From assembly GCA_030751095.1 (NCBI GenBank), contig JASMGX010000007.1, forward strand, positions 1 to 39,386: a DNA stretch of 39,386 nt, given 5' to 3'. Under the pieces are notes generated by a model, which saw only the letters and a list, made by a program, of their open reading frames with translations, was not told where the DNA came from and did not search any database. A program made the position numbers and the translations under genes. The DNA comes from Pirellulales bacterium (GTDB lineage: Bacteria; Planctomycetota; Planctomycetia; Pirellulales; UBA7805). Below are positions 19,779-34,273 of the stretch, in pieces (position 1 is the stretch's first letter; each line of letters opens with the position of its first letter).

Positions 19779-22496
19779 TTATGTCGCATGCCAATATCGC
19801 GACGAAATAAGTTCGGTGTTTTTCTTAGTAAGCCAGCCTGCGCGGCCATCGGGGGTACGAATCTGAAGCCAGTCGCCACGTTGCTGGACGACTTCAAACA
19901 TGGTTCCCATATCGAGAGATGCCTCGCCCGCAAGGGCAAAACCGTCTCCATTACCCACATGCAGTTGTGTGCCAGCGACAACAATCACCCCTCGATCGCT
20001 GCTGACCGGTTCGGACCATTGGAGTCCCAATGAGCCGGCACAGAGAACGAAACCAACTGCTGCTGGAATGATGATGTATCGCAATCCCTTTTTAGTAAAC
20101 AAAAGACCGGCCGCCATTGTCAGCCACAAAACCGACCAGGAAACCACACCTACAATGAGTCGACTGTTGAGTGATAGGCTTTTGTTCCAAATCATCACTC
20201 GCTCAGTGAGTGATCTCTTTTCTTTCGGATTTTCTCCCGTCAGCAAAGAAATTGCATGATCTCGATTGGCGACGACCGCTGCATCACCAGGCTGCAACAA
20301 AGCGGCACGCTCGTAATTTGCTAGAGCGCGGCCCGGATTGCCAATCTGCAGATAGGCACCGGCAAGGTTGAAATAGAGTTTTCCATTCTCGATCCCATCA
20401 TCGACGAGGGTCTGGTACTTGCTCGCGGCTACTGTAAATGCTTCTTTTGCAACCGCAGCATCATCGGAAGCAGCTTGGCCTCGCTCGTAAGCATCGGCTG
20501 CTTCTTGAAGAATCTGTCTTGACTGATGGGGACTCAATTCGGCCGCTTTCGCAATACTCGCTCCCGCCGGAAAGCCGCCCGATGCCAGTGTGGCCAAAAG
20601 AAGGATACTTGCAGCGGTTGTCTTGGAAAACGATCGATTCCACATCCTCTTGCCAGAGGTCGATCCGTAGCCAACTGTCCGCTGCCGGCCAAGCATTGTC
20701 AGACAAGATTTTCCACGACTGATGAGTGACTCAATGTTATTGTCTGCAATACCTGCATAACAGCTTGTCTCACACTCAGAAAGCAAACTATCTAGTTCTC
20801 CACTGCCGCTTTGCAATCCATGCTTTCGCAACGCTGCAACCGCTTCAGTGCGCGTGAGTCCTGTAGCCGACATTCCCACACGATCGGCAACGTACCCGAG
20901 CATCACTAATGCGACATCATCGCTGGTCTTTGCCACCTGCAAACCGCGATTCGCTCGGCGAAACGCCGCCTGACGGCCATTTTGCACAGCACCGGTGACC
21001 TGAGGCCAATATTTGATCAGGGCGAAGACTACAAACACAAACGGGGCAAACAAAAGGGCGCCAATCAGCACCAACCGGTTTAAGGGCTTTGCACTCACCA
21101 ACAGATCGCTTCCCCTGTAATTGTCGAACGAAACCTGAGATACCGGACCATCGGTATCCCCGGAAGTACCCGTTGCTGCCCGGCGACCACCTGCTGCAAC
21201 GACCGAGGAGAGGGCCAATGTATCTGCCGGCTGAACGTTGATGGTGATCGGCTCGCTCCAAGCGGTTACAAACTCTTCTTTGTCAGGATCAAAATAACTC
21301 AGTGGAACTGCCGGAATCTGAGAAATTCCCGCGCGGCGAGGGCGAATGCTGGCACGAAAGACTTTAACGTCATTCTCAACGACACCTGCGAGTGCCTCAT
21401 CCGGAACTTTGAAGTCGCGAGAAAACTCGGCTAATTCCGCCAATGGTGGGGCCTGCACCAACTCCATGGGGCCATCGCCTCGGATCCCGATATGGAGTGT
21501 GATCGGATCCCCTGCTTTGATATCGATTGGCGTAGCTCGGGTAATGATTTCATAATGTCCAACAGCTCCACGATAATCAGCGGGCCGCCGGTCCGTCGGA
21601 ATCGCAACCACTTCCGTCGAGGGAATCTGTGCATCTTCTACGATGGGCCGGACCTGATTGATTGTTAACTGACCTGCGGAAAAGAAATCCCGGGATCGTG
21701 TCAATGATGTTGGATATTGCATCACAACCTGGACATCACCCGCATTCACCTTCCCTGGCCGGGTCGGATACATAGTCGCAGGAATTTCGTACAGGTAATA
21801 TATTTCATCTTGTCCTTCGCCATTGTCACGAAGCACCTTGCGACCGACAACACGACGTTGTTCTTGAGCCAACTCACGCAGTGTTTCATCAAAGGATCCC
21901 CAGTTGGAATGTTCTGTGGAAATCAGACTCCACATATCGCTAGGAGAGAGAGCGACATCATAGCGGTCATCGTGAAACTGCTTGATCAGAATCTGAAGTG
22001 TCAAATCAAGTGGTTGCCCTACATATATTTTTTCTTCTTTACCCTCCACCTCGACAAACAGAAGATCTCCCGTTTCGCTTTTCGTGGCCAGAAAGGAGAG
22101 CGACTGTGTACGCTCGATGCGGCCATCTGCTTGGACCTCTACCGATGGAATATGAAAAGTTCCTTCTCTTCGCGGAGTCAACTGCCAGGCATAGGTTATC
22201 GACGTGCGATGACTTCGACGACCGTTGATAATCGTTGTTTGAGAACTCTGACTCGGCACACCGGCAGACTCGATATCAAGGCCAGCAACGTCTCCAATGA
22301 CGGGCTGCGTATGACGACCAGCATTGCTGATTCTCAGATGCATGGTGATGGGAACACCCACATAGGCCTCCTGAGTTGACAGGGCCGTATCGACTGTAGC
22401 GGCGGACAGTTTGGCGGGTGCAAGTGTCATCGCGATTGCGACGGCAAGGGCAAAGGCCATGCTGAGAATCTGTGTATGTGTGCACTCTTTTTTCAT
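19779..22496 (-). CDS. BatD-BatE fusion: BatD beta-domains, internal signal-like segment, TPR and SH3
   Basis: A 905-residue protein. Residues 1-33 are a signal peptide. Residues ~34-470 are BatD-type beta-sandwich repeats (VDTALSTQEAYVGVPITMHL; IYVGQPLDLTLQIL; IDIKAGDPITLHIGIRGDG). A membrane helix follows at ~474-495, then a cytoplasmic part. Near residue 618 comes a second signal-like segment (MWNRSFSKTTAASILLL ... AKAAELS). After it are a TPR region (KLYFNLAGAYLQIGNPGRAL), two more membrane helices (~780-825) and a C-terminal SH3-like domain (TQLHVGNGDGFAL ... DWLQIRTPDGRAGWL). The second half is what BatE normally is. The start at 22496 follows the BatC-like stop by 16 bases. A 914-residue version from a GTG at 22523 is possible. 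Confidence 0.88.
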   Translation of the reverse strand: MKKECTHTQILSMAFALAVAIAMTLAPAKLSAATVDTALSTQEAYVGVPITMHLRISNAGRHTQPVIGDVAGLDIESAGVPSQSSQTTIINGRRSHRTSITYAWQLTPRREGTFHIPSVEVQADGRIERTQSLSFLATKSETGDLLFVEVEGKEEKIYVGQPLDLTLQILIKQFHDDRYDVALSPSDMWSLISTEHSNWGSFDETLRELAQEQRRVVGRKVLRDNGEGQDEIYYLYEIPATMYPTRPGKVNAGDVQVVMQYPTSLTRSRDFFSAGQLTINQVRPIVEDAQIPSTEVVAIPTDRRPADYRGAVGHYEIITRATPIDIKAGDPITLHIGIRGDGPMELVQAPPLAELAEFSRDFKVPDEALAGVVENDVKVFRASIRPRRAGISQIPAVPLSYFDPDKEEFVTAWSEPITINVQPADTLALSSVVAAGGRRAATGTSGDTDGPVSQVSFDNYRGSDLLVSAKPLNRLVLIGALLFAPFVFVVFALIKYWPQVTGAVQNGRQAAFRRANRGLQVAKTSDDVALVMLGYVADRVGMSATGLTRTEAVAALRKHGLQSGSGELDSLLSECETSCYAGIADNNIESLISRGKSCLTMLGRQRTVGYGSTSGKRMWNRSFSKTTAASILLLATLASGGFPAGASIAKAAELSPHQSRQILQEAADAYERGQAASDDAAVAKEAFTVAASKYQTLVDDGIENGKLYFNLAGAYLQIGNPGRALANYERAALLQPGDAAVVANRDHAISLLTGENPKEKRSLTERVMIWNKSLSLNSRLIVGVVSWSVLWLTMAAGLLFTKKGLRYIIIPAAVGFVLCAGSLGLQWSEPVSSDRGVIVVAGTQLHVGNGDGFALAGEASLDMGTMFEVVQQRGDWLQIRTPDGRAGWLTKKNTELISSRYWHAT

Positions 22497-22512
22497 GGTG
22501 TTTATCCGTTCT

Positions 22513-23904
22513 TTACCAGTCACGATCTACAGGTTGATAGTACCGCTGCGTCTTGCGGAGTTTTTCGTAACGTCGCTTCAAATCACGATCTCGGACTGCC
22601 TGAAGCATTTTTTCAGCTTCCTCTTTGGTCATCGGCCGAACCTCCTCTTCGCCCTGTGGCTGGTGTCCAAAATGAGGAACCTGTCCTTCTTGCTGCTCTT
22701 GTTCGTCATTCGGTTGACCCGCCTGAGCAGATGACGGTGCATCGTGTTGCTCTTGCTCTTTCTCGGCCTGGCCCTGCTGGGCATGCTCATGCTGCTCCTG
22801 ATTTTGCTCGTCCTGTTGCTCTTGATCCTGTTCGTCCTGGTTCTGTTCGTCCTGGTTCTGTTCGTCCTGGTTCTGTTCGTCCTGGTTCTGTTCGTCCTGG
22901 TTCTGTTCGTCCTGGTTCTGTTCGTCCTGCTGATCCTGCTCCTGCTGCTCTTGCTCCTGGTTCTGCCTATCTTGGTTCTGGTGCTGGTGCTGCTCTTGCT
23001 CCTGCTGATCCTGATTTTGCTCGTCCTGTTGCTCTTTATCCTGCTGCTCTTGCTCCTGTTCGTCCTGGTTCTGCTGATCCTGGTTCTGCTCGTCCTGGTT
23101 CTGCTCGTCCTGTTGCTCCTGCTGATCCTGCTGATCCTGGTTCTGCTCGTCCTGGTTCTGTTCGTCCTGCTGATCCTGATTTTTCTCGTCCTGTTGCTCT
23201 TTATCCTGTTGCTCTTGCTCCTGCTGCTGCTGATCCTGGTTCTGGTGCTGGTGCTGTTGATCCTGCTCCTGCTGCTCTTGTTCCTGCTGCTCTTGTTCCT
23301 GCTGCTCGTCCTGGTTCTGGTGCTGGTGCTCCTGTTCCTGTTGATCCTGTTCCTGCTGCTCTTGGAGCTTTTCGATCAACATGGCAGCCAATTCGGCATT
23401 GGCCCTCGAATCGGAATCGTTCGAATCAGCATCCAATGCACCCCGGTAGTGCGAGATTGCCGTCTTTAGTTTTTCAATTGCCGCCTGAGAATCTTGCTCC
23501 GCAAGACCGACCGCCTCGGCATAATCACAGTTTGCAAGATTGAATCGCGATTTGGCCTCTAATTGGCTGTCTTCAACGCCCGTAGAGTGCGCAAAGAGTT
23601 CGCGGGCTGCGGCATAATCGCCACCACGATAATGGGTCACCCCCTGGTTGTATGCCGCTTCATAACTGTCCGACTGCGAGGCCTCTCCCTCTGATTCCGT
23701 TTCAGAGGCATCGCCAGATCGACTCTCAGACGGTTGAAACTGCTGTATGTCTACCGCTGAAGGAACGGCTTGCCCCTGCGGATGGTCGCCGACGACCTGC
23801 CCGGCCTTTGCATCGGCGGTACCAGAGAGTAGGGATACCAGGAGGATCGCAATGATGATCACCATCACGATGTCTAACCTGCTAATTCGCGTATGGCTAC
23901 TCAT
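22513..23904 (-). CDS. BatC-like TPR protein with about 200-residue Gln/Glu/Asp/Asn/His tract
   Basis: A 463-residue protein. The ATG at 23904 overlaps the BatB stop (ATGA) and has GGAAAGGG upstream. It has a signal peptide or anchor (LDIVMVIIIAILLVSLLSG), an acidic Ser-rich spacer, and a TPR-like pair at ~82-160 (YEAAYNQGVTHYRGGDYAAA; SRFNLANCDYAEAV). A low-complexity region at ~180-387 is built almost entirely from Q, E, D, N and H. The C-terminus (MTKEEAEKMLQAVRDRDLKR ... PVDRDW) matches the end of BatC proteins, which proves the frame stays intact through the repeat. BatC proteins are periplasmic partners of BatA/BatB. The size and purity of the tract exceed what I know of the family; short charged or Gln-rich stretches there are common. 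Confidence 0.87.
   Translation of the reverse strand: MSSHTRISRLDIVMVIIIAILLVSLLSGTADAKAGQVVGDHPQGQAVPSAVDIQQFQPSESRSGDASETESEGEASQSDSYEAAYNQGVTHYRGGDYAAARELFAHSTGVEDSQLEAKSRFNLANCDYAEAVGLAEQDSQAAIEKLKTAISHYRGALDADSNDSDSRANAELAAMLIEKLQEQQEQDQQEQEHQHQNQDEQQEQEQQEQEQQEQDQQHQHQNQDQQQQEQEQQDKEQQDEKNQDQQDEQNQDEQNQDQQDQQEQQDEQNQDEQNQDQQNQDEQEQEQQDKEQQDEQNQDQQEQEQHQHQNQDRQNQEQEQQEQDQQDEQNQDEQNQDEQNQDEQNQDEQNQDEQNQDEQDQEQQDEQNQEQHEHAQQGQAEKEQEQHDAPSSAQAGQPNDEQEQQEGQVPHFGHQPQGEEEVRPMTKEEAEKMLQAVRDRDLKRRYEKLRKTQRYYQPVDRDW
22831..22929. repeat. Perfect 15-bp tandem repeat coding for DEQNQ units
   Basis: Six identical consecutive copies of TTCGTCCTGGTTCTG (22831-22920) plus a partial seventh lie inside the BatC-like gene. 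On the coding strand they read as repeated five-residue units of Gln, Asn, Asp and Glu. Identity at the DNA level means recent expansion, so copy number may vary between strains. Looser related repeats continue to about 23370. Confidence 0.95.
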
Positions 23905-24938
23905 GCATTTACCCTTTCCATAACATTTCTTCGCCTCCCACCAGCCATCCAAAAGGTGTCCAGCACAATGAGGGCAAGCGCGAGACCGACAAACCATTGA
24001 AATTGGGGAATGTAACTGTTGATACGAGCGGTCTCAAATTCAGTTTGCTCAACGCTCGAAACATAACCCCGATACACATCAGCCATATCGACCTGTTTTG
24101 TGCCTGCAGGGATATAAGCACCATCCCCTTTTAGGGCGATCTCTTTGAGAACATCCCCGTCAAGACGCGACCAGACCTCTTGCCCGTCGTGCTGCAAATA
24201 AGACCTTCTGTTGCTGGCCAAGCGAACTGGGATCCTTGATCCCTGGTCGAAATCGCCCAAGCCAATTGTAAAAGTCCGGATTCCCTCTTCGGCAAAAGCC
24301 TCTGTGGCTTCCTCGATCGGTTCGCTCTCGTGATCTTCGCCATCGGTGATGATCACGAGAGCCTTGTGATTGTCGCTCTCGTCAAGAAATGTAGATCTCG
24401 CAACTCGAATTGCATCCCCCAGACGAGAGCCACCTCGCTCTAAGCAATGGGGACCTACTTCTTCGAGCATCAGTTTAAAGTCGTGGTAGTTGCTCGTGAG
24501 AGGAATTTGCTGCTTGGCACGGCCTGCAAAGACCACCAAACCCGCTCGATCACCATCCATCACATCCAGAATGTCTACGATCTGCTGCTTGGCGCGCTCC
24601 AAGCGGTTCGGACTCACATCCTCCGCCAACATGGATCGCGAAATATCCAATGCGAACACCACTTCAATACCTTTTTGGGGAACATCTCGCCAATTGCGGC
24701 CCCACCGAATATCGATCAGTGCTACAACCAGGGCCAACATTGCCGCCGTAACCAAAACAATGCGAAACAGGCTCCGCGAAAATCCACCATGTGGAAGTAG
24801 GCGGGCCAGAAGGTTCGGTGTGGCAAACTTCTTTGTCGCCCTCTGCTTTAAAACAAGGGCAGCGACCATAGCTCCCAGAGCAATCGCGACGACCCAAAGA
24901 AGGCTTAGGCTGCTCAAACTACCAAACTGGATGTCCAT
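23901..24938 (-). CDS. batB: BatB: von Willebrand A membrane protein
   Basis: A 345-residue protein with two N-terminal membrane helices, a von Willebrand factor A domain and a C-terminal helix (FQWFVGLALALIVLDTFW). The metal-ion (MIDAS) residues are visible: D98-x-S100-x-S102 in FALDISRSM, Ser171 in GGSRLGDAI (commonly Thr), and D199 in VIITDGEDHE. The VWA domain lies on the periplasmic side between the helices. Bat proteins were first linked to aerotolerance and stress survival in Bacteroides and Leptospira, but their biochemical role is unsettled. The ribosome site AGGGAGAG precedes the ATG by 6 bases; the gene is 19 bases after BatA. Confidence 0.93.
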   Translation of the reverse strand: MDIQFGSLSSLSLLWVVAIALGAMVAALVLKQRATKKFATPNLLARLLPHGGFSRSLFRIVLVTAAMLALVVALIDIRWGRNWRDVPQKGIEVVFALDISRSMLAEDVSPNRLERAKQQIVDILDVMDGDRAGLVVFAGRAKQQIPLTSNYHDFKLMLEEVGPHCLERGGSRLGDAIRVARSTFLDESDNHKALVIITDGEDHESEPIEEATEAFAEEGIRTFTIGLGDFDQGSRIPVRLASNRRSYLQHDGQEVWSRLDGDVLKEIALKGDGAYIPAGTKQVDMADVYRGYVSSVEQTEFETARINSYIPQFQWFVGLALALIVLDTFWMAGGRRRNVMERVNA

Positions 24939-24957: not shown

Positions 24958-26046
24958 TCACGGAATCTGTCGATAGACAAAAGCACCTAGACAACTTTGC
25001 GTTACCAGAAGAATCAGTGCCACCAACACCAAGGGCGGCAACAGAACAAAACCTGCAGGTAATGGTTCAATCGCCAGTTCTCGATAATCAACGTAGTGGC
25101 GTTCTTCAACGCGACTTTTTTCCAGCGCGTCGATCTCTTCATAAATTGCGGCCAGCGACTCGGTATCTGTGGCACGAAAATATTTTCCACCTGTCTTTTG
25201 GGCAATGTTTTGAAGTGTCTCTTCATCGATATGCACTTCTGTCCACTGCATGGTGCGGCGACCCGTGAGGGGATTGGTCACCGGCACTGGCGCACGACCG
25301 GTCGTACCAACACCAATGGTGTATATCTTGATCCCGAGCGTCTCTGCCAACGCGGCAGCCTCGGCTGGCTCAACGGATCCTGCATTATTTTCACCATCGG
25401 TGAGCAGGATGACAATTTTACTCTGGACGTCTTCATCCTGTTGGCCGCGACGTTGATCGAGTGTTTTCAATTTTTCAAGTGCAAGACTGATGGCATCGCC
25501 AATTGCTGTTCCATCTTCGTTTTGATCGGTGGCAATCTCCGTTTTTCTGAGCCGTGCCGTCAGATACGAATGATCCAGTGTCAACGGGCTCACTCCATCG
25601 GCATAGCCAGCAAAGGTGATCAGACCCACCAAATCCGCGAATCGACCTGGCAAATCGTCACCACCGGTCACGAACTTACCGGCAACATCCTTGATCGCGG
25701 TAAGACGATCGACGGGCCTTCCATCAACTTCAAAATCCATGGCCTGCATACTGCCACTGCGGTCCACCACCAGTTGGATCGCAATGCCATCGGAATCGAC
25801 TGTTGTTACCTTACGACCCAACATTGGCCGGGCAATGGCCACGATCAACATTGCGATGGCCAACAACCGCAGGCAGGGTAAAATCCAACGCGTTCGGGTT
25901 TTCCAGGTTGCACCTGCGACAGCGGCAGCGGACGTGGAGCTGAAGCTGATAGCAGATGCTTTCCGCTTTCTGAACCGCAACCAGGCAACTGGCACGATCA
26001 ATACAAGCAGTAAAAGAAACCACGCTGATAATGGATGAAAAATCAT
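24958..26046 (-). CDS. batA: BatA: von Willebrand A membrane protein
   Basis: A 362-residue protein starting at the ATG at 26046, which overlaps the previous stop (ATGA). It has an N-terminal helix (SAWFLLLLVLIVPVAWL), a second helix at ~55-73, and a VWA domain with an intact MIDAS: D95-x-S97-x-S99 (VVDRSGSM), T180 (DGTAIGDA) and D217 (LLTDGENN). A C-terminal helix (AGFVLLPPLVLVALILLV) follows. The overall plan is the same as BatB but the sequences differ throughout, so this is an old duplication. In the family BatA and BatB are thought to form a membrane complex that works with the MoxR ATPase. Confidence 0.93.
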   Translation of the reverse strand: MIFHPLSAWFLLLLVLIVPVAWLRFRKRKASAISFSSTSAAAVAGATWKTRTRWILPCLRLLAIAMLIVAIARPMLGRKVTTVDSDGIAIQLVVDRSGSMQAMDFEVDGRPVDRLTAIKDVAGKFVTGGDDLPGRFADLVGLITFAGYADGVSPLTLDHSYLTARLRKTEIATDQNEDGTAIGDAISLALEKLKTLDQRRGQQDEDVQSKIVILLTDGENNAGSVEPAEAAALAETLGIKIYTIGVGTTGRAPVPVTNPLTGRRTMQWTEVHIDEETLQNIAQKTGGKYFRATDTESLAAIYEEIDALEKSRVEERHYVDYRELAIEPLPAGFVLLPPLVLVALILLVTQSCLGAFVYRQIP

Positions 26047-27125
26047 GCTGCCACCTGCTCCGGCGTTGACGATTGTGATTTTGTATCTTCTTGGGATGTC
26101 GTACAAACAAACTCGCGGGCTTTTTCAATCGCCTGCTCCGCTTCTCCGCGCGAAGGATCGAGGCAGGCAAACTTGACCATATCCGCAAAAATAAGGAACT
26201 CCTGTAGCGATGCACGATGTGCATCTTGGAGCAAACTCTCTGTTCGCATCGCTAACAGGAATTCCGTAGTCGTCTGCTTCGGTGCGGAGTAGCCGAAGCG
26301 TCGTTCGATATAGAAACGGACGATGTCCGTCAATTTGCAATAAAATTCATGCGTCTTCCCGGACTCAAGGAGTCCACTTCCTTCCAGATCGGCCAACTGC
26401 TTCAACGCCCACTGCCGCACAGTCAATTCTTTTCGCAGGCGATACCAACAAAACAGAGCTGCCGAAGCAATCAGACAAAGTACGCCGCCAACAATCCCAT
26501 AAGATGTCCAGGATGTTTGCTGCACCGTTGCGACGGGAATCTCGACCAATCCCTTGATATCGCGAAACTGCATCGGATCAGCCTGACCTTCAAGTAAACT
26601 CACAATCTTGATTTCCATTGACTCCGAGGCGAGAGAGTCGGTGACAGACTTTTTTTGTCGATGGTCGGTGAACGATACCGAGATCGCGGGAATTTCCTGT
26701 GTCCCCGAGTTGAGTGATTCCAACTGATACGTTCGCTTCCAACTTCGCCCGTCACTTTCGGGAATATCCAATGTGTCATTGGATTTGAGGACATCAAAAG
26801 AACCGATCGATTCTCCGACTTCTGGAAATTGGACCGTCACGCCGGCCGGAGCCTTAACGGTGAGCGACATCGTGATCGGCTCGGCAACCTGGGCTGAGGT
26901 TCGATCCACAAAGGCTGTCATCTGGACCGGGCCCTTTTGGGAATGCCGCATAACGTGGACGTCGCTGGTGACATCCGGCGTCTTTTTGCCCTGGCTACAG
27001 GCACCAGCCAATAGCATCAGGGCTGTCGCGAGCACGAACAGATGGGCGTGCCGCCCACCCATCCGACCGCCGCAACGGCCAATAGAAGTTTTATGGTTTT
27101 TCAATCGTTGCACGATTTCTCTCAT
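26043..27125 (-). CDS. Membrane-anchored BatD-like protein (BatD N-type/DUF4381-like)
   Basis: A 360-residue protein with a basic N-terminus, then a hydrophobic stretch ending LMLLAGACSQ. That is lipoprotein-like, although Ala rather than Leu stands at -3 of the lipobox. A beta-rich extracellular part follows (VQMTAFVDRTSAQVAEPITM; PEVGESIGSFDVL), a helix at ~209-229, and a cytoplasmic tail (HEFYCKLTDIVRFYIERRFG; TTTEFLLAM) shared with BatD/DUF4381 proteins. The operon therefore has two BatD-type modules, this one and the BatD-BatE fusion. The start overlaps the DUF58 stop (ATGA) and the stop overlaps the BatA start (ATGA). Confidence 0.85.
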   Translation of the reverse strand: MREIVQRLKNHKTSIGRCGGRMGGRHAHLFVLATALMLLAGACSQGKKTPDVTSDVHVMRHSQKGPVQMTAFVDRTSAQVAEPITMSLTVKAPAGVTVQFPEVGESIGSFDVLKSNDTLDIPESDGRSWKRTYQLESLNSGTQEIPAISVSFTDHRQKKSVTDSLASESMEIKIVSLLEGQADPMQFRDIKGLVEIPVATVQQTSWTSYGIVGGVLCLIASAALFCWYRLRKELTVRQWALKQLADLEGSGLLESGKTHEFYCKLTDIVRFYIERRFGYSAPKQTTTEFLLAMRTESLLQDAHRASLQEFLIFADMVKFACLDPSRGEAEQAIEKAREFVCTTSQEDTKSQSSTPEQVAA

Positions 27126-27997
27126 CGACGCGCCTCCCGCTTGTGAAAAAATCGGCGTAGTGGATCGACCATATCTTCGCCGGTGTTGATATAGATGGGA
27201 TCCATCTTCAGTTTTCGGAATAATTGCTCCCGATTCTCTGCTTCCAGAGATGCCTGCTTCTGATACAACTCGCGATGGTGTCGGCTTGTCGTATCAAAAA
27301 CGACAATCTCGCCAGTTTCCGAATCTCTCAATTCGACGATTCCAACATTGGGCATCTCGGTTTCACGCTGGTCGCCAACAACAATTGGAATGATGTCGTG
27401 TTTCCGGCGAGCAATCCGCAGTGGAGTTTGATAATCACTATCCTGGAAATCGCTGATCAAAAATATCACCGAACGACGTTTGGCCGTTCTGTTAATGTGA
27501 TCCAGTGTCGCTGCAATATCAGTACCGCGGCCGATTGGCTCGCAGTACAGAAGTTCACGGATCACTCGCAACACATGCCGAGTTCCCTTGGCTGGTGGCA
27601 CAACCTTTTCAATACCATCGGTGAACAACGTCAGGCCAACCTTGTCGTTGTTCTTGATCGCCGAAAAAGCCAGCGTCGCCCCTAATTCTGTCACCAACTC
27701 CCGTTTGGACTGCTGTTGGGTTCCCAGTGACTGCGAGGCACTCAGGTCCACCACCAGATGAACCGTCAATTCGCGCTCCTCGCGAAAAAGTTTGACGAAC
27801 GGATCACCGGTTCGGGCGGTAACATTCCAGTCGATTGTGCGAACATCGTCACCAATCTGATAGGGACGCACCTCCTCAAACTCAATGCCCCGACCTTTAA
27901 AGGCTGAGTGGTACTGTCCACCCAACATGTCATCAACGACATGTGAAGTGCGGATTTCAATCCGTCGAATTTTTTTCATTATGTCTACTGGGATCAT
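27122..27997 (-). CDS. DUF58 protein
   Basis: A 291-residue DUF58 protein. I start at the ATG at 27997 because AAAGG lies 9 bases upstream; in-frame starts also exist at 28018 (GTG) and 28006. The family signature runs FKGRGIEFEEVRPYQIGDD, VRTIDWNVTARTGDPFVK (about residues 33-69). A VWA-like motif follows with D84-x-S86-x-S88 (VVDLSASQS). DUF58 proteins are the standard partner of MoxR ATPases and of Bat proteins. No membrane helix was seen, so it is cytoplasmic. It lies 61 bases after moxR. Confidence 0.92.
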   Translation of the reverse strand: MIPVDIMKKIRRIEIRTSHVVDDMLGGQYHSAFKGRGIEFEEVRPYQIGDDVRTIDWNVTARTGDPFVKLFREERELTVHLVVDLSASQSLGTQQQSKRELVTELGATLAFSAIKNNDKVGLTLFTDGIEKVVPPAKGTRHVLRVIRELLYCEPIGRGTDIAATLDHINRTAKRRSVIFLISDFQDSDYQTPLRIARRKHDIIPIVVGDQRETEMPNVGIVELRDSETGEIVVFDTTSRHHRELYQKQASLEAENREQLFRKLKMDPIYINTGEDMVDPLRRFFHKREARR

Positions 27998-28058
27998 TTC
28001 GATCATCCTTTCGGACACAAACCATTGGGCGGCAAACGATGCGGGATGCTGTTGTCAA

Positions 28059-29078
28059 TCAGGGCACTTGAACCTGGCCCAATATTTTGTCAATCACATC
28101 CACGGACGTCAGCTCTTCAGCTTCCGCCTCGTATGTCAGGATGACACGATGTCGGAGCACATCGTATGCCATATCCTTGACATCCTGCGGCGTGACATAG
28201 CCACGGCCAGCTAGAAATGCGTTTGCTTTTGCCGCTAAAGTCAGGTTGATCGAGGCTCGCGGCGATGCGCCATACTGAATCAGATGCTCAAGCGAGAGAC
28301 CATACGACTCAGGTTCACGAGTGGCGATCACCAGATCAACGATATACTTGCTGACCCGCTCATCGACATAGATCTCGTCGATCAGTTTTCTAGCCGTAAC
28401 GACTTCTTCCGGATTCAATACTGAATGTACGTCATAGGAAGCCTTGGTTTTCGACATGCGATTCAAAATCTGACGCTCTTCATCGCGATTCGGATAGCCA
28501 ACGATCACTTTCAGCATGAATCGATCCATCTGGGCTTCCGGAAGTGGGTAGGTCCCCTCCTGCTCAATCGGATTTTGAGTCGCCATGACTAAAAACGGAT
28601 CGTCCAGCGGAAATGTCTCTCCGCCAATGGTCACTTGTCGTTCCTGCATCGCCTCGAGCAAGGCGCTCTGCACCTTGGCCGGGGCACGATTGATTTCGTC
28701 AGCCAGTATCAGATTTGAAAAGATCGGACCCTTATGAACCACAAAATCCTGATCTTGTGGACGGAAAATCAAAGTACCGAGCAGGTCTGCGGGGAGCAGA
28801 TCAGGAGTGAACTGCAATCGCTGAAAACTGGTATTGATGCCTTTTGCCAAACACGCAACCGCTGTTGTCTTTGCCAAGCCGGGGACACCCTCGATCAGGA
28901 GATGACCATTGCCCAACAGACCTACCAGCATGCGGTGCATCAGGTTTTCCTGGCCAACAATCACTCGCCCGACTTCGCCAAGCAAACGCTGAAATGGTTC
29001 GCTGTGGATTTTAATTTCTTCAGTGATTTCGTTGATTCGATCGTGTGTCACTCTCGTGTCTGCAGTTGCGTGTGCCAT
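28059..29078 (-). CDS. moxR: MoxR-type AAA+ ATPase
   Basis: A 339-residue AAA+ ATPase of the MoxR family. Walker A is GVPGLAKTT (residues 64-72), Walker B is LILADEINRAP (123-133), and sensor 1 is MATQNPIEQEGTYPLPEAQ with the following arginine DRFMLK. The C-terminal lid contains GASPRASINLTLAAKANAFL. MoxR proteins act as chaperones that insert cofactors into, or assemble, VWA-protein complexes. It is the first gene of the operon; GAGAGG lies upstream of the ATG. Confidence 0.95.
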   Translation of the reverse strand: MAHATADTRVTHDRINEITEEIKIHSEPFQRLLGEVGRVIVGQENLMHRMLVGLLGNGHLLIEGVPGLAKTTAVACLAKGINTSFQRLQFTPDLLPADLLGTLIFRPQDQDFVVHKGPIFSNLILADEINRAPAKVQSALLEAMQERQVTIGGETFPLDDPFLVMATQNPIEQEGTYPLPEAQMDRFMLKVIVGYPNRDEERQILNRMSKTKASYDVHSVLNPEEVVTARKLIDEIYVDERVSKYIVDLVIATREPESYGLSLEHLIQYGASPRASINLTLAAKANAFLAGRGYVTPQDVKDMAYDVLRHRVILTYEAEAEELTSVDVIDKILGQVQVP

Positions 29079-29536
29079 TTTCAGCGCCTCTCAGATTCAG
29101 TGTTTTGTTGACCAAATAATCCAACCCGAGTTACTCGTTACTACTTGTCCCGTCCAAAATGCCGGGCGAAATCACACCGCGCGGCGGGGGGCAACAGAAA
29201 GAAAGCAACTGCTGTGCCAATTTTTTTTTCTGCCGATTTACAGCTATTTTTTTCAGAATGTGGCGGCACTCTGCGCGGCATTTTGCCCCGGCGTCCCAGA
29301 ATTCCTCATAACAAACGCGGATTCTGCGAGATCTCAGAAGTCTGCTGGAGAAACTCGGTCACAGATTCCCGAGAAATGAACGGTCCGGAAGACCATTTAT
29401 GGACATTCTTAGCAATCCAGCTTAAATTGGTGTTATCCGAGGAGCGGTGTTCCGGTCCATTTGCAGATCGTTGCCGACCAGCGGTGAGAGATCCCACCTC
29501 CAAATTTCACACCTCACATTTCGTAGAGCCGCATCC
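29079..29536. other. Divergent intergenic region upstream of moxR and the cytochrome/DUF1549 gene
   Basis: This 458-base interval must contain the promoter of the Bat operon (minus) and of the cytochrome-domain gene (plus). It holds runs of T around 29221-29229 and 29248-29254. I could not assign promoter boxes with confidence, and no RNA gene was found. Confidence 0.5.
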
Positions 29537-32500
29537 ATGACGAAGTGGCACGCATTCCTGCCCGGCCTTGCAGTTGCACTTTGCATGTCCCTCAATCTTT
29601 GCGTGAAAACCTTTGCCGATCCCGAGGAACAGACGCCCAATCCCTTGGCAAAAGAATTTGCCCGGGAACATCTTGAATTCTTTGAGAAGAACGTCCGTCC
29701 GCTCCTGGTAAACCGCTGTCATGAATGCCACGGTGAGGAGGAAGGTGAACGTGAGGCTGGTTTGCGACTCGACTCCCGCAAAGAAATGCTCGCGGGCGGC
29801 CAGTCTGGTCCGACGATTGTACCCGGAAAGCCAGAACAGAGTCTTTTGATCGAGGCGATCCATTATGGCGACACGTTTGAAATGCCGCCCGATTCAAAAC
29901 TTTCAGAACAGGAAATCGCCACGCTGACAAAGTGGATCCGCATTGGTGCACCCTGGTCGGCCGACATTGATACAAACAAGAATGCCGAACAAAAAGCGGT
30001 TGCAGATAGTCAAGAGGAAGCGAGATACTGGTGCTGGAATCCGATCCAACAACAATCGCCTCCCGAAGTCAAGAATCGGGATTGGCCACTCGGGGATGTG
30101 GACCGTTTTATCCTCCGCGCCCTGGAGGATCGGGACTTGTCTCCGGCGCCACCAGCCAATCCCTATCACTGGATCCGGCGCGTCAGTTTCGATCTGACGG
30201 GCCTTCCACCGACACCAGAAGAAGTCGACGCGTTTATCAATGACTCCTCAACAGAGGCCCGTGAGCGGGTCGTCGATCGCTTGCTCGCTTCGCCACGCTT
30301 TGGTGAGCATTGGGCACGTTATTGGATGGATCTTGTTCGGTACGGAGAAACAAAAGCTTTTGCACAGGACTATGCAATGCCCTTTATCTACCGGTACCGC
30401 GATTACCTGATCCGTGCCTATAACGAGGACGTCCCCTACGACAAATTTATTATGGAAGCACTTGCAGGAGACCTTCTGGAAACTCCTCGTCTTAATCCTT
30501 CGAACCTATCGAATGAATCGGTCATGGGGCCTGGCTTTATTTACCTTACCGATGGGCATCATGGACCTGCTGATATCCACGCCGATGAGGCCCGGGTTTT
30601 TGACACCATTATCGACACGACCAGTAAAGCATTTACAGCACTCACACTCTCCTGTTGTCGTTGTCACGATCATAAATTCGATGAGCTTACCGCCAGTGAT
30701 TATTATTCACTTTATGGCGTGCTTGCCAGTTCACGGCTCGATTATGCCAACGCAGTCTCCCCAGAGAAGCTGCAACAATCTGAAGCCCAGCTCAAGCAAC
30801 AAAAAGAACTGATACAAAACGAGCTGTTCAGAAGTCTTCGGCAACAAATCGATGCATTGGATCTGACCGATCGCGCCAAACTGTCCAAAGAGTGGCAAAC
30901 ACTGCTTTACTCTAAGGAAAAACTTGCAACGAGCCATCCACTCTATCCTATGGCAACCATTGTATCTGCGGCAGATGAGTCGCAGCGGAAGCAACTCTGG
31001 AACCACTTGGCGAGTGCGCCTGCGGAGTCAGTACGAGACGAAGTGCCAGAATCGCTCGCTTTTGAACACTGGTTTCCTTCTGGGACGGCCTTTGCAAATA
31101 CTCCGCTCAAGGCGGGCACTTTTGTTCTGGCTCCCGATGGGGAAACAATCATCAATACATTCATCGGGGGAAGCGTCGCTGCGGGTGAATTCTCATCGCG
31201 CTTTGCTGGCTCGTTTAAGTCCCCGACTTTTGTTCTTCCTGAAAAAATCAGCCTCCGCGTAAAAGGACGACAGGGCCACGTGCGGCTCTATGTACAGCAT
31301 TATGAAATGGTAGGTCACGGACCGACAACCACCGAGCTAGATATTGCCATCAATAATGATCAGTGGCACTGGGTTGAATTTGATACCCGGCTCTGGAAAG
31401 GCAAACGCGGCTATTTGGAACTTCTCCACAATGGACGCGAGATGAGATTTTTTGCAAAACAGCAACACATGGCAATCCACCAGGACGATAGCTATCTGGC
31501 TTGCAATCAAGTCCTGCTCTCCCAGGCACCGGAAGTTGAGAAAACCACCACCTACTCTGCAGCTTGGAACATTTACGGCAAGCCGCCTGCCGATCTCGCG
31601 ACGGCCGGAGCATTTTTTCGCGATCAATTACTTCAACTGCTCACGCGTTGGGAATCTGGAATACTACAATCGGACGAACAGGATATCCTTGAATCTCTCT
31701 GCACTGCAGAGGGCCCCCTCGCAACAACCATTCGGCCAGAAAGTGCTCTCGGTTCTTTGGTCCAGACGTATCGACAGACGGTGCGCGGGATCCCCACACC
31801 TTTTTATGTCCGAAGCATGACGGACGGCCACGGCGAGGATGAACCGATTTATATCCGAGGAAATCCCCATGTAATGAATCGAACAGCCACGCCACGACAC
31901 TTTCTCGAGGCGATCGATGGAGAAGCGTTCACCGGGTCGGGAAGTGGCCGCAAGGAATGGGCCGCCGCACTGGTTGATCGAAACAATCCCCTGGTATCCC
32001 GAGTCGAGGTGAACCGTATATGGTATCGACTCTTTGGGCGTGGAATCGTTAAGACTGTCGATAATTTTGGCGAAAAGGGGGATGCTCCCAGCCACCCGGA
32101 ATTGCTCGATTATCTAGCCGCTGATTTCATGAAAAACGATTGGTCGCGCAAGTCGATGATTCGTAAACTGGTTCTTTCGAACACCTATCAGATGTCCACC
32201 AAAGGCTCCGCAGCAGCAACGGAAATCGATCCGGATAATATTTTCCTCCAGCACATGAAGGTGCGACGCATCCCGGCCGAAGCAATCCGAGATGCTATTC
32301 TCGCCACCAGTGGCTCACTAAATGATCAGATGTATGGCCCATCCGTTCCGGTGAATTTGAATCAAACCCAACCAAGCCGGGCAAGGCCCGATAAAAGCGG
32401 GCCCCTCGATGGAGATGGCCGACGGACGGTCTATCAGGAGATGCGGCGCAATTATTTACCTCCGCTGCTGTTGGTTTTCGACCTTCCTCAGGCGGCTGTT

Positions 32501-32827
32501 TCGGCGGGTCAGCGTGGAGTCACCAATGTTCCTGCACAATCGCTCGCCCTGCTGAACGATCCCTTTGTTGTCGAACAGGCCGGATTATGGGCGAACAAAG
32601 TCCTGCAAGACAAGCAACATTCAACGGAGGATCGCATTCACTCTATACACCATGCTGCCTTTTCGCGACCGGCGACCGATCGCGAGATAGACCGCTCTAA
32701 ACGGATGCTTTCGGCCTTGGCTCAAGAACACCAACTGGATGAAAAAGAGGTCACCGAGAACGAGCAGGTCTGGAAAGATTTCTGCCATATGATGCTCAAC
32801 CGCAAAGAGTTTATTTTTCTCCAATAG
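29537..32827 (+). CDS. Planctomycete cytochrome-c / DUF1549 / DUF1553 protein
   Basis: A 1096-residue secreted protein. I use the ATG at 29537, which gives a signal peptide (WHAFLPGLAVALCMSLNLC) and skips 30 extra residues of the longer frame. A cytochrome-c-like domain comes first, with CHECH (C61, C64, H65) and a possible Met ligand in FEMPPDS. DUF1549 follows (VDRFILRAL; RVSFDLTGLPPTPEEVDAF), including the conserved CCRCHDHKFD near residue 371. A middle beta-sandwich-like part (about 530-700) leads to DUF1553 (NNPLVSRVEVNRIWYRLFGR; KLVLSNTYQMS). Such proteins are a planctomycete hallmark, often near sulfatases; their reaction is unknown. The DUF1501 partner follows after 36 bases. Confidence 0.93.
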   Translation: MTKWHAFLPGLAVALCMSLNLCVKTFADPEEQTPNPLAKEFAREHLEFFEKNVRPLLVNRCHECHGEEEGEREAGLRLDSRKEMLAGGQSGPTIVPGKPEQSLLIEAIHYGDTFEMPPDSKLSEQEIATLTKWIRIGAPWSADIDTNKNAEQKAVADSQEEARYWCWNPIQQQSPPEVKNRDWPLGDVDRFILRALEDRDLSPAPPANPYHWIRRVSFDLTGLPPTPEEVDAFINDSSTEARERVVDRLLASPRFGEHWARYWMDLVRYGETKAFAQDYAMPFIYRYRDYLIRAYNEDVPYDKFIMEALAGDLLETPRLNPSNLSNESVMGPGFIYLTDGHHGPADIHADEARVFDTIIDTTSKAFTALTLSCCRCHDHKFDELTASDYYSLYGVLASSRLDYANAVSPEKLQQSEAQLKQQKELIQNELFRSLRQQIDALDLTDRAKLSKEWQTLLYSKEKLATSHPLYPMATIVSAADESQRKQLWNHLASAPAESVRDEVPESLAFEHWFPSGTAFANTPLKAGTFVLAPDGETIINTFIGGSVAAGEFSSRFAGSFKSPTFVLPEKISLRVKGRQGHVRLYVQHYEMVGHGPTTTELDIAINNDQWHWVEFDTRLWKGKRGYLELLHNGREMRFFAKQQHMAIHQDDSYLACNQVLLSQAPEVEKTTTYSAAWNIYGKPPADLATAGAFFRDQLLQLLTRWESGILQSDEQDILESLCTAEGPLATTIRPESALGSLVQTYRQTVRGIPTPFYVRSMTDGHGEDEPIYIRGNPHVMNRTATPRHFLEAIDGEAFTGSGSGRKEWAAALVDRNNPLVSRVEVNRIWYRLFGRGIVKTVDNFGEKGDAPSHPELLDYLAADFMKNDWSRKSMIRKLVLSNTYQMSTKGSAAATEIDPDNIFLQHMKVRRIPAEAIRDAILATSGSLNDQMYGPSVPVNLNQTQPSRARPDKSGPLDGDGRRTVYQEMRRNYLPPLLLVFDLPQAAVSAGQRGVTNVPAQSLALLNDPFVVEQAGLWANKVLQDKQHSTEDRIHSIHHAAFSRPATDREIDRSKRMLSALAQEHQLDEKEVTENEQVWKDFCHMMLNRKEFIFLQ

Positions 32828-32863
32828 TTGTTTCCACCACGATAAAAACTTTTTGACTGCAAT

Positions 32864-34273
32864 ATGAACACTGGATTGACAAGACGCGAACTACTCCAGA
32901 AGACCTCAATGGGTTTCGGTGCGCTTGCACTTTCCGATATGCTGCTAACCGGACAGGTAGCCTCTGGCAGCACTCCCGCCCTAACCGGTCCCAGACCACC
33001 ACATTTTGAACCGAAGGCAAAAAGCGTTATTTTCCTCTATATGGATGGTGGGGTTTCGCAAGTCGATTCCTTCGATCCAAAACCACAACTTGAAAAAGAC
33101 AGCGGCAAACCACCGCCCTTTAAAACCGATCCTACGGTTTTCAACAACCAGGGCGGATTGCTACCGAGCCCCTGGAAATTCAAGCGGCATGGCCAAAGTG
33201 GGCAGCAACTCAGCAGTCTTTTTCCCCATCTGGGAAGTTGTGCGGATGAATTATGTATTATCCGATCGATGACTGCTTTTTTGCCCGATCATCCCAACGC
33301 CAATTATGCATTGCATAGTGGTTTTGCCGTCCGTGGTCTGCCCTGCATGGGGGCGTGGATTTCCTATGGACTGGGGAGTGTGAATCAAAATTTACCCAGC
33401 TTTGTCGTGATCCATGGCGGGCAAATACCGCCCGGCGGAATGACCACTTTCGGTAATGGATTCTTACCTGCCCAACATCAGGGTTCCATATTCCTGCACC
33501 AGAAACCCGCTTTGCGAAATCTGCAGAGACACGAGACCTCGGCCGGCCTACAGGCTACAAAAATTAACTACCTCAAAGAGTTTGACCAGGAATATGTTGA
33601 CACCGAGGGGACCGATCGTGAAATTGAAGCAGCGATCAGCAACTACGAACTGGCGTTCCGCATGCAGATGGCGGTTCCGGAAGTGATGGATCTTTCTCAG
33701 GAAAGCAAGGCGACAAAGCAACTCTATGGACTCGATTCCAACCACGAGTTTGTAAAATCGTATGGCACCCAGTGTTTGCTCGCACGACGGATGGTCGAAC
33801 GGGGCGTTCGGTTCATTGAGTTGACGATGGCCAAACAGCCGGGAGTGGATCGCTGGGACCAGCACAACAACCTGAAAGAAGCGCATCCCAAAAATGCTTT
33901 GGCGGTCGATCAGCCAATTGCCGGACTGATCAAAGATCTGAAATGCCGCGGACTGCTCGATAGTACGCTGTTGGTCTTCACCAGCGAGTTTGGCCGTACA
34001 CCCTTTGCTCAGGGGAAAAATGGCCGCGATCATAACCCACAAGGATTCAGCTTGTGGCTCGCTGGCGGAGGCATTCGGGGAGGCACCGTCTATGGCTCGA
34101 CCGACGAGTATGGATATCGAGCAGTTGTAAATAAATTGAGCGTGAATGATCTGCACGCAAACATTTTGCATCTACTCGGTATTGACCATACCAGACTGAC
34201 CTACCAATACAGCAGTCGGGATTTCCGGCTTACAGATATCGGTGGTCGCGTCATTCCTGAAATCCTGCTGTAA
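32864..34273 (+). CDS. DUF1501 secreted protein (sulfatase-like fold)
   Basis: A 469-residue protein with a Tat-like signal (LTRRELLQKTSMGFGALALS). DUF1501 motifs follow: SVIFLYMDGGVSQVDSFDPK, SLFPHLGSCADELCIIRSM, DHPNANYALHSGF, GVRFIELTMAKQPGVDRWDQH, LVFTSEFGRTPFAQGKNGRDH and LLGIDHTRLTYQYSSRDFRL. The fold is related to alkaline phosphatase/sulfatase, and the DGG, EFGRTP and RDH positions resemble metal-binding parts, but activity is unproven. No strong ribosome site was seen. DUF1549/DUF1553 and DUF1501 genes are almost always paired in planctomycetes and likely work together outside the cytoplasm. Confidence 0.92.
   Translation: MNTGLTRRELLQKTSMGFGALALSDMLLTGQVASGSTPALTGPRPPHFEPKAKSVIFLYMDGGVSQVDSFDPKPQLEKDSGKPPPFKTDPTVFNNQGGLLPSPWKFKRHGQSGQQLSSLFPHLGSCADELCIIRSMTAFLPDHPNANYALHSGFAVRGLPCMGAWISYGLGSVNQNLPSFVVIHGGQIPPGGMTTFGNGFLPAQHQGSIFLHQKPALRNLQRHETSAGLQATKINYLKEFDQEYVDTEGTDREIEAAISNYELAFRMQMAVPEVMDLSQESKATKQLYGLDSNHEFVKSYGTQCLLARRMVERGVRFIELTMAKQPGVDRWDQHNNLKEAHPKNALAVDQPIAGLIKDLKCRGLLDSTLLVFTSEFGRTPFAQGKNGRDHNPQGFSLWLAGGGIRGGTVYGSTDEYGYRAVVNKLSVNDLHANILHLLGIDHTRLTYQYSSRDFRLTDIGGRVIPEILL

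Follow-up and report, generated by a model that had tools for sequence, protein, structure and literature searches.

The analysed stretch of DNA, hereafter the window, comprises 39,386 nucleotides from a Pirellulales bacterium whose draft genome (3.69 Mb, 469 contigs) is 82% complete; among named relatives, the nearest one found, with 58% BatB identity, is a Mariniblastus metagenome genome. On its minus strand the window carries an intact operon in the order moxR-DUF58-batD-like-batA-batB-batC-batDE:

28059-29078, minus strand: MoxR-type AAA+ ATPase (PF07726, E=2.5e-64)
27122-28018, minus strand: DUF58 protein (PF01882, E=3.9e-78)
26043-27125, minus strand: short BatD-like protein (PF13584, E=3.6e-05)
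24958-26106, minus strand: batA, with a VWA domain and the BatA N-terminal domain
23901-24938, minus strand: batB, with a VWA domain and three membrane segments; many relatives have it fused to batC
22513-23904, minus strand: coding sequence of batC (463 aa and a stop codon), conserved in its position beside batB among relatives
19779-22523, minus strand: batD-batE fusion of 914 aa, a BatD domain followed by TPR and SH3

Both its position and its architecture identify the gene directly 3' of batB as the BatC of a moxR-bat operon, in agreement with the initial annotation of the locus, which had called it BatC-like. The ATG of batC and the stop codon of batB overlap by 4 nt. At the other end of batC, a batD-batE fusion is also suggested by ORF lengths in several relatives (L032, L036, L037), and Borrelia bb0170 has been described as such a fusion (PMC5700661). 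A divergent PSCyt1/PSCyt2/PSD1 and DUF1501 gene pair (29447-34273, plus strand) lies beside the moxR end of the operon. BatC itself divides into the following features:

23803-23877, minus strand: N-terminal signal peptide or membrane anchor, approximately residues 10-34, hydropathy 2.79
23365-23667, minus strand: small TPR domain, approximately residues 80-180, with conserved N86, A100, N122, G/A124 and N169
22744-23364, minus strand: polar tract, residues 181-387 (Q100 E43 D29 N18 H9 K4 A2 R1 G1)
22837-22926, minus strand: six tandem DEQNQ copies, residues 327-356, a 15-nt unit with identical codons
22633-22743, minus strand: mixed polar linker, residues 388-424, low model confidence
22543-22632, minus strand: conserved C-terminal helix, residues 425-454, MTKEEAEKMLQAVRDRDLKRRYEKLRKTQR
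22516-22530, minus strand: C-terminal VDRDW, where conservation is highest in the protein

The N-terminal hydrophobic segment is followed directly by ADAKA and qualifies as an export or membrane signal by hydropathy alone. The TPR domain is recognised through matches to TPR modules in profile and fold searches; PF13432 reaches E=0.0059 in a single-sequence Pfam search, which is weaker than the cut-off, and the fold search returned generic TPR matches alone, none at E<0.001. Neither Pfam nor NCBIfam gave a BatC model. Among solved structures, VWA domains of BatB-type proteins are represented (3ibs, 4jdu), and BatC is represented only by the generic TPR matches.

The polar tract is as near to pure Q, E, D, N and H as first described for residues ~180-387, and its reading frame, coordinates and composition were all confirmed. 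Only eight of its 207 residues fall outside these five types, there are no aromatics, and two Ala are the only hydrophobics. The charged fraction is 0.37 and the net charge per residue is -0.32. All nine His sit in repeated HQHQNQ motifs, and further DEQNQ copies with synonymous codon differences occur beyond the six identical ones, the whole array being placed at 22828-23169 by a tandem-repeat program. The six-copy array is a probable recent expansion.

The initial annotation had argued that the tract is selected as protein given that its frame stays open. That the tract is part of a translated protein stands, but the argument from the open frame fails. T makes up only 2.9% of the coding strand across the tract, and in DNA so poor in T no stops occur in sense frame +1 or in antisense frames 0 and 2 either; with these three other frames equally open, the open batC frame is no evidence of selection. 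The real evidence, as judged from sequence comparison, is the in-frame conservation of the same plan in orthologues. Two antisense ORFs lie on the plus strand opposite the tract, one of 355 aa with RPGSV repeats (22476-23543) and one of 241 aa with a Leu/Val/Ile/Phe-rich stretch (22744-23469). Both were rejected as genes, being an effect of the T-poor repeat composition, and they could mislead automatic annotation.

Orthologues were collected from approximately 180 relatives in all, drawn from members of the window's own order and phylum, from 80 named genome contigs and from a separate Bacteroidota sample, an orthologue being the gene 3' of batB or, in fusions, the part that continues batB. 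When candidates were chosen without regard to their ends, a terminal Trp was present in 130 of 141 complete candidates after batB, mostly from Planctomycetota and Flavobacteriaceae, and in 41 of 48 proteins of the separate Bacteroidota set, for which the longest ORF was taken and which shows the same plan. In both sets the Trp end is usually [E/D][K/R]DW or a close variant, a family feature established in this comparison and present in the window BatC. The candidates that lack it are largely other genes beside batB, together with small pick errors and one protein ending in DWR. The W-ending proteins share a common plan: a signal or transmembrane segment, a small TPR domain, a polar tract, a short helix and a KDW-type end. 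The polar tract is present in essentially all 131 of them. In Planctomycetes bacterium CA13 (L136), no recognisable batC follows a batB that is 58% identical to that of the window (after 5984), and the gene may be elsewhere in the genome or lost. Three sequences titled Thermodesulfobacteriota, Proteobacteria and Nitrospinaceae (L149, L151, L193) carry a gene after the BatB homologue that is not batC-like.

The tract had been regarded as unusual, but nearly every BatC examined has one, and its absence from close relatives, which the initial annotation had named as refuting its view, is not what was seen: in L032, the only complete same-genus relative compared, it is approximately half as long. 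Tract length ranges from 39 to 291 aa, with a median of ~90, in the 128 proteins kept for composition analysis. Under a uniform tract rule the window tract measures 228 aa and ranks second of 131 in length and fourth in QEDNHK purity, although the rule penalises hydrophobic residues, such that its hydrophobic-free character is partly built in. The window tract is thus an extreme member, long and pure, of a family-wide linker and is ordinary in kind.

The residues that make up this linker drift with base composition. Across the 128 proteins, the K+N fraction correlates negatively (rho -0.71) and the P+G+A+R fraction positively (rho +0.70) with genomic GC, the tracts shifting from Q/E/D through K/D to P/G/E-rich. 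A net positive charge is found in 17 of the 128, His is near zero in most (median zero), and Pro or Gly occurs in 127, at a median of 11%. Taken from sequences alone, this pattern fits selection for a hydrophilic, unsticky character and not for a particular chemistry.

The C-terminus shows the opposite behaviour. Between the window and L032, 38 of the last 39 residues are identical despite 17 silent codon changes, whereas identity falls to 62/96 (65%) in the TPR domain and 12/45 (27%) at the N-terminus, and the linkers measure 247 and 120 residues. In an alignment of 48 BatC sequences, D462 and K/R461 stand out together with N86, A100, N122, G124 and N169 of the TPR domain. Only proteins with a [D/M/N]W or KTW end entered this alignment, so that Trp conservation within it is not independent, and the unbiased figures are the end-blind ones, 130/141 and 41/48. 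N86, N122 and N169 place Asn at the same position of all three repeats in 92-98% of the 48. TPR consensus designs also often carry Asn there, and ligand binding by BatC is therefore only suggested. The accessible literature, which included few subscription journals, yielded no description of the batC tract or of the terminal KDW-type motif in searches made without the motif letters.

Natural BatB-BatC fusions bear on the location of these domains, and they usually keep a hydrophobic segment, preceded by a short basic loop, between the third membrane segment of BatB and the TPR domain. BB0173, a BatA-family homologue, sits in the inner membrane and was shown to expose its VWA domain to the periplasm (PMC5700661). 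The fourth hydrophobic segment of the fusions would therefore place the TPR domain on the VWA side, and the TPR, tract and tail of BatC are probably periplasmic. The proposed periplasmic spacer is supported to this extent, the tract lying very probably outside the cytoplasm. Composition and structure models together indicate that the tract is probably disordered. The AlphaFold model of the window BatC has a mean pLDDT of 73, with 95-98 in the TPR domain and 75-89 in the C-terminal helix. In the model of a planctomycete fusion (L138), the VWA, TPR and C-terminal helix are confident (79-94), and most of the tract falls below a pLDDT of 50.

With a probability of about 0.75, the BatC tract is a periplasmic tether between the TPR domain and the tail, extended, largely disordered and negatively charged. 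A membrane-proximal periplasmic TPR domain would be joined by this tether to a short helix ending in VDRDW-COOH. Selection would preserve the exact C-terminal tail and a minimum of ~40 linker residues that are soluble and non-sticky; how long the linker is and which residues it uses would drift through repeat expansion and base composition. The sequences directly show the plan common to the family, the drift of the linker and the conserved tail. One point against a tether comes from the models, according to which the first part of the tract may prolong the TPR domain as a helix.

It is unlikely that the whole tract is a functionless, neutral repeat expansion, in which CAG/GAG/GAC-rich units slip and only frameshifts are purged for the sake of the in-frame tail. 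Six tandem DEQNQ copies with identical codons, the twofold difference in linker length within one genus and the dependence of composition on GC would all be expected of such a process, but nearly all BatC proteins, over several phyla, retain some polar linker, and neutral gain and loss would not lead to that. Neutral expansion likely holds for the excess length in the window and not for the presence of the linker; the extra residues of the tether are probably slippage-driven and tolerated.

Quite improbable, too, is a long rigid helical rod that continues the last TPR helix. In the window model, helices span residues 164-251 and 263-339, the tract having a pLDDT mostly of 85-95 up to approximately residue 240 only, and the last TPR helix of the L138 fusion model runs for ~55 residues. 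Pro or Gly in almost every orthologous tract and the low confidence of most of the L138 tract argue against a rod, and in our judgement helix prediction in Q/E repeats may be a bias of the model.

The initial annotation had also offered a divalent-cation binding brush and a phase-separating scaffold for the BatA/BatB complex. High acidic content and nine His in repeated motifs make such roles conceivable in the window protein, but neither acidity nor His is conserved as composition shifts with GC, and the usual stickers of a scaffold are missing, there being no aromatic and a single Arg. Both roles are very doubtful, and any binding of cations would be a secondary trait of the window lineage. 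The same charged fraction, absence of aromatics and single Arg led to rejection of a prion-like or condensate-forming domain, as the tract had been described.

There is very little reason to regard the tract length, or the whole repeat array, as an assembly artefact. The window derives from a fragmented draft, and assemblies of close relatives break in the batC tract, at contig ends (L033, L034, L132) or N runs (L131), and estimates of tract length in the whole group may therefore be wrong. However, the frame is intact on both sides of the tract, a similar tract is present in the complete same-genus relative, and no 99-mer is repeated within it. The exact assembled length in the window is provisional, with copy number alone uncertain.

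For a tether of this kind, the tail would be a putative docking element for another Bat component or for a TPR groove, and the tether would set its reach. Candidate partners are the TPR groove of BatC or BatE and a VWA metal site. On a tentative reading, somewhat less probable than its negation, the helix and [E/D]KDW-COOH would be a dedicated ligand within the Bat complex, and their binding site would be either the VWA metal site of BatA or BatB or the TPR groove of BatC or BatE with its lining of Asn. If true, it would explain how the tail is kept across phyla while its surroundings drift. BatC gives profile and fold matches to peptide-binding three-repeat TPRs, including CTPR390 with an Hsp90 peptide (3kd7), Hop TPR2A and the OGT asparagine ladder, in comparison with which the BatC TPR domain is probably a periplasmic adaptor.

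The closest known counterpart is BatC of the Bacteroides aerotolerance moxR-bat operon, compared here through Bacteroidota examples that include Flavobacteriaceae (among L161-L264). These share with the window the position after batB as well as the signal sequence, TPR, polar tract, helix and [E/D]KDW end, whereas the window tract is ~2.5 times the median length, richer in Q, D/E and His, and poor in K. In Leptospira biflexa, BatB and BatC are fused (PMC3557215). The order of VWA, membrane segment and TPR in this protein, known here by its published description, and in planctomycete fusions (L035, L036, L038, L138) is that of the window, and the planctomycete fusions also carry a polar tract and a DW end. 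In the window, unlike in the fusions, batB and batC are separate genes. The role of Bat proteins in aerotolerance is disputed (PMC3557215).

What the comparison isolates is a precise element, a C-terminal Trp motif that is conserved across phyla and carried on a replaceable tether. The KDW-type end is more interesting than the tract itself, which is mostly ordinary for the BatC family. The widespread Bat system is still without a settled function after over two decades. The three residues of the motif, with whatever binds them, would give direct access to how the Bat complex works.
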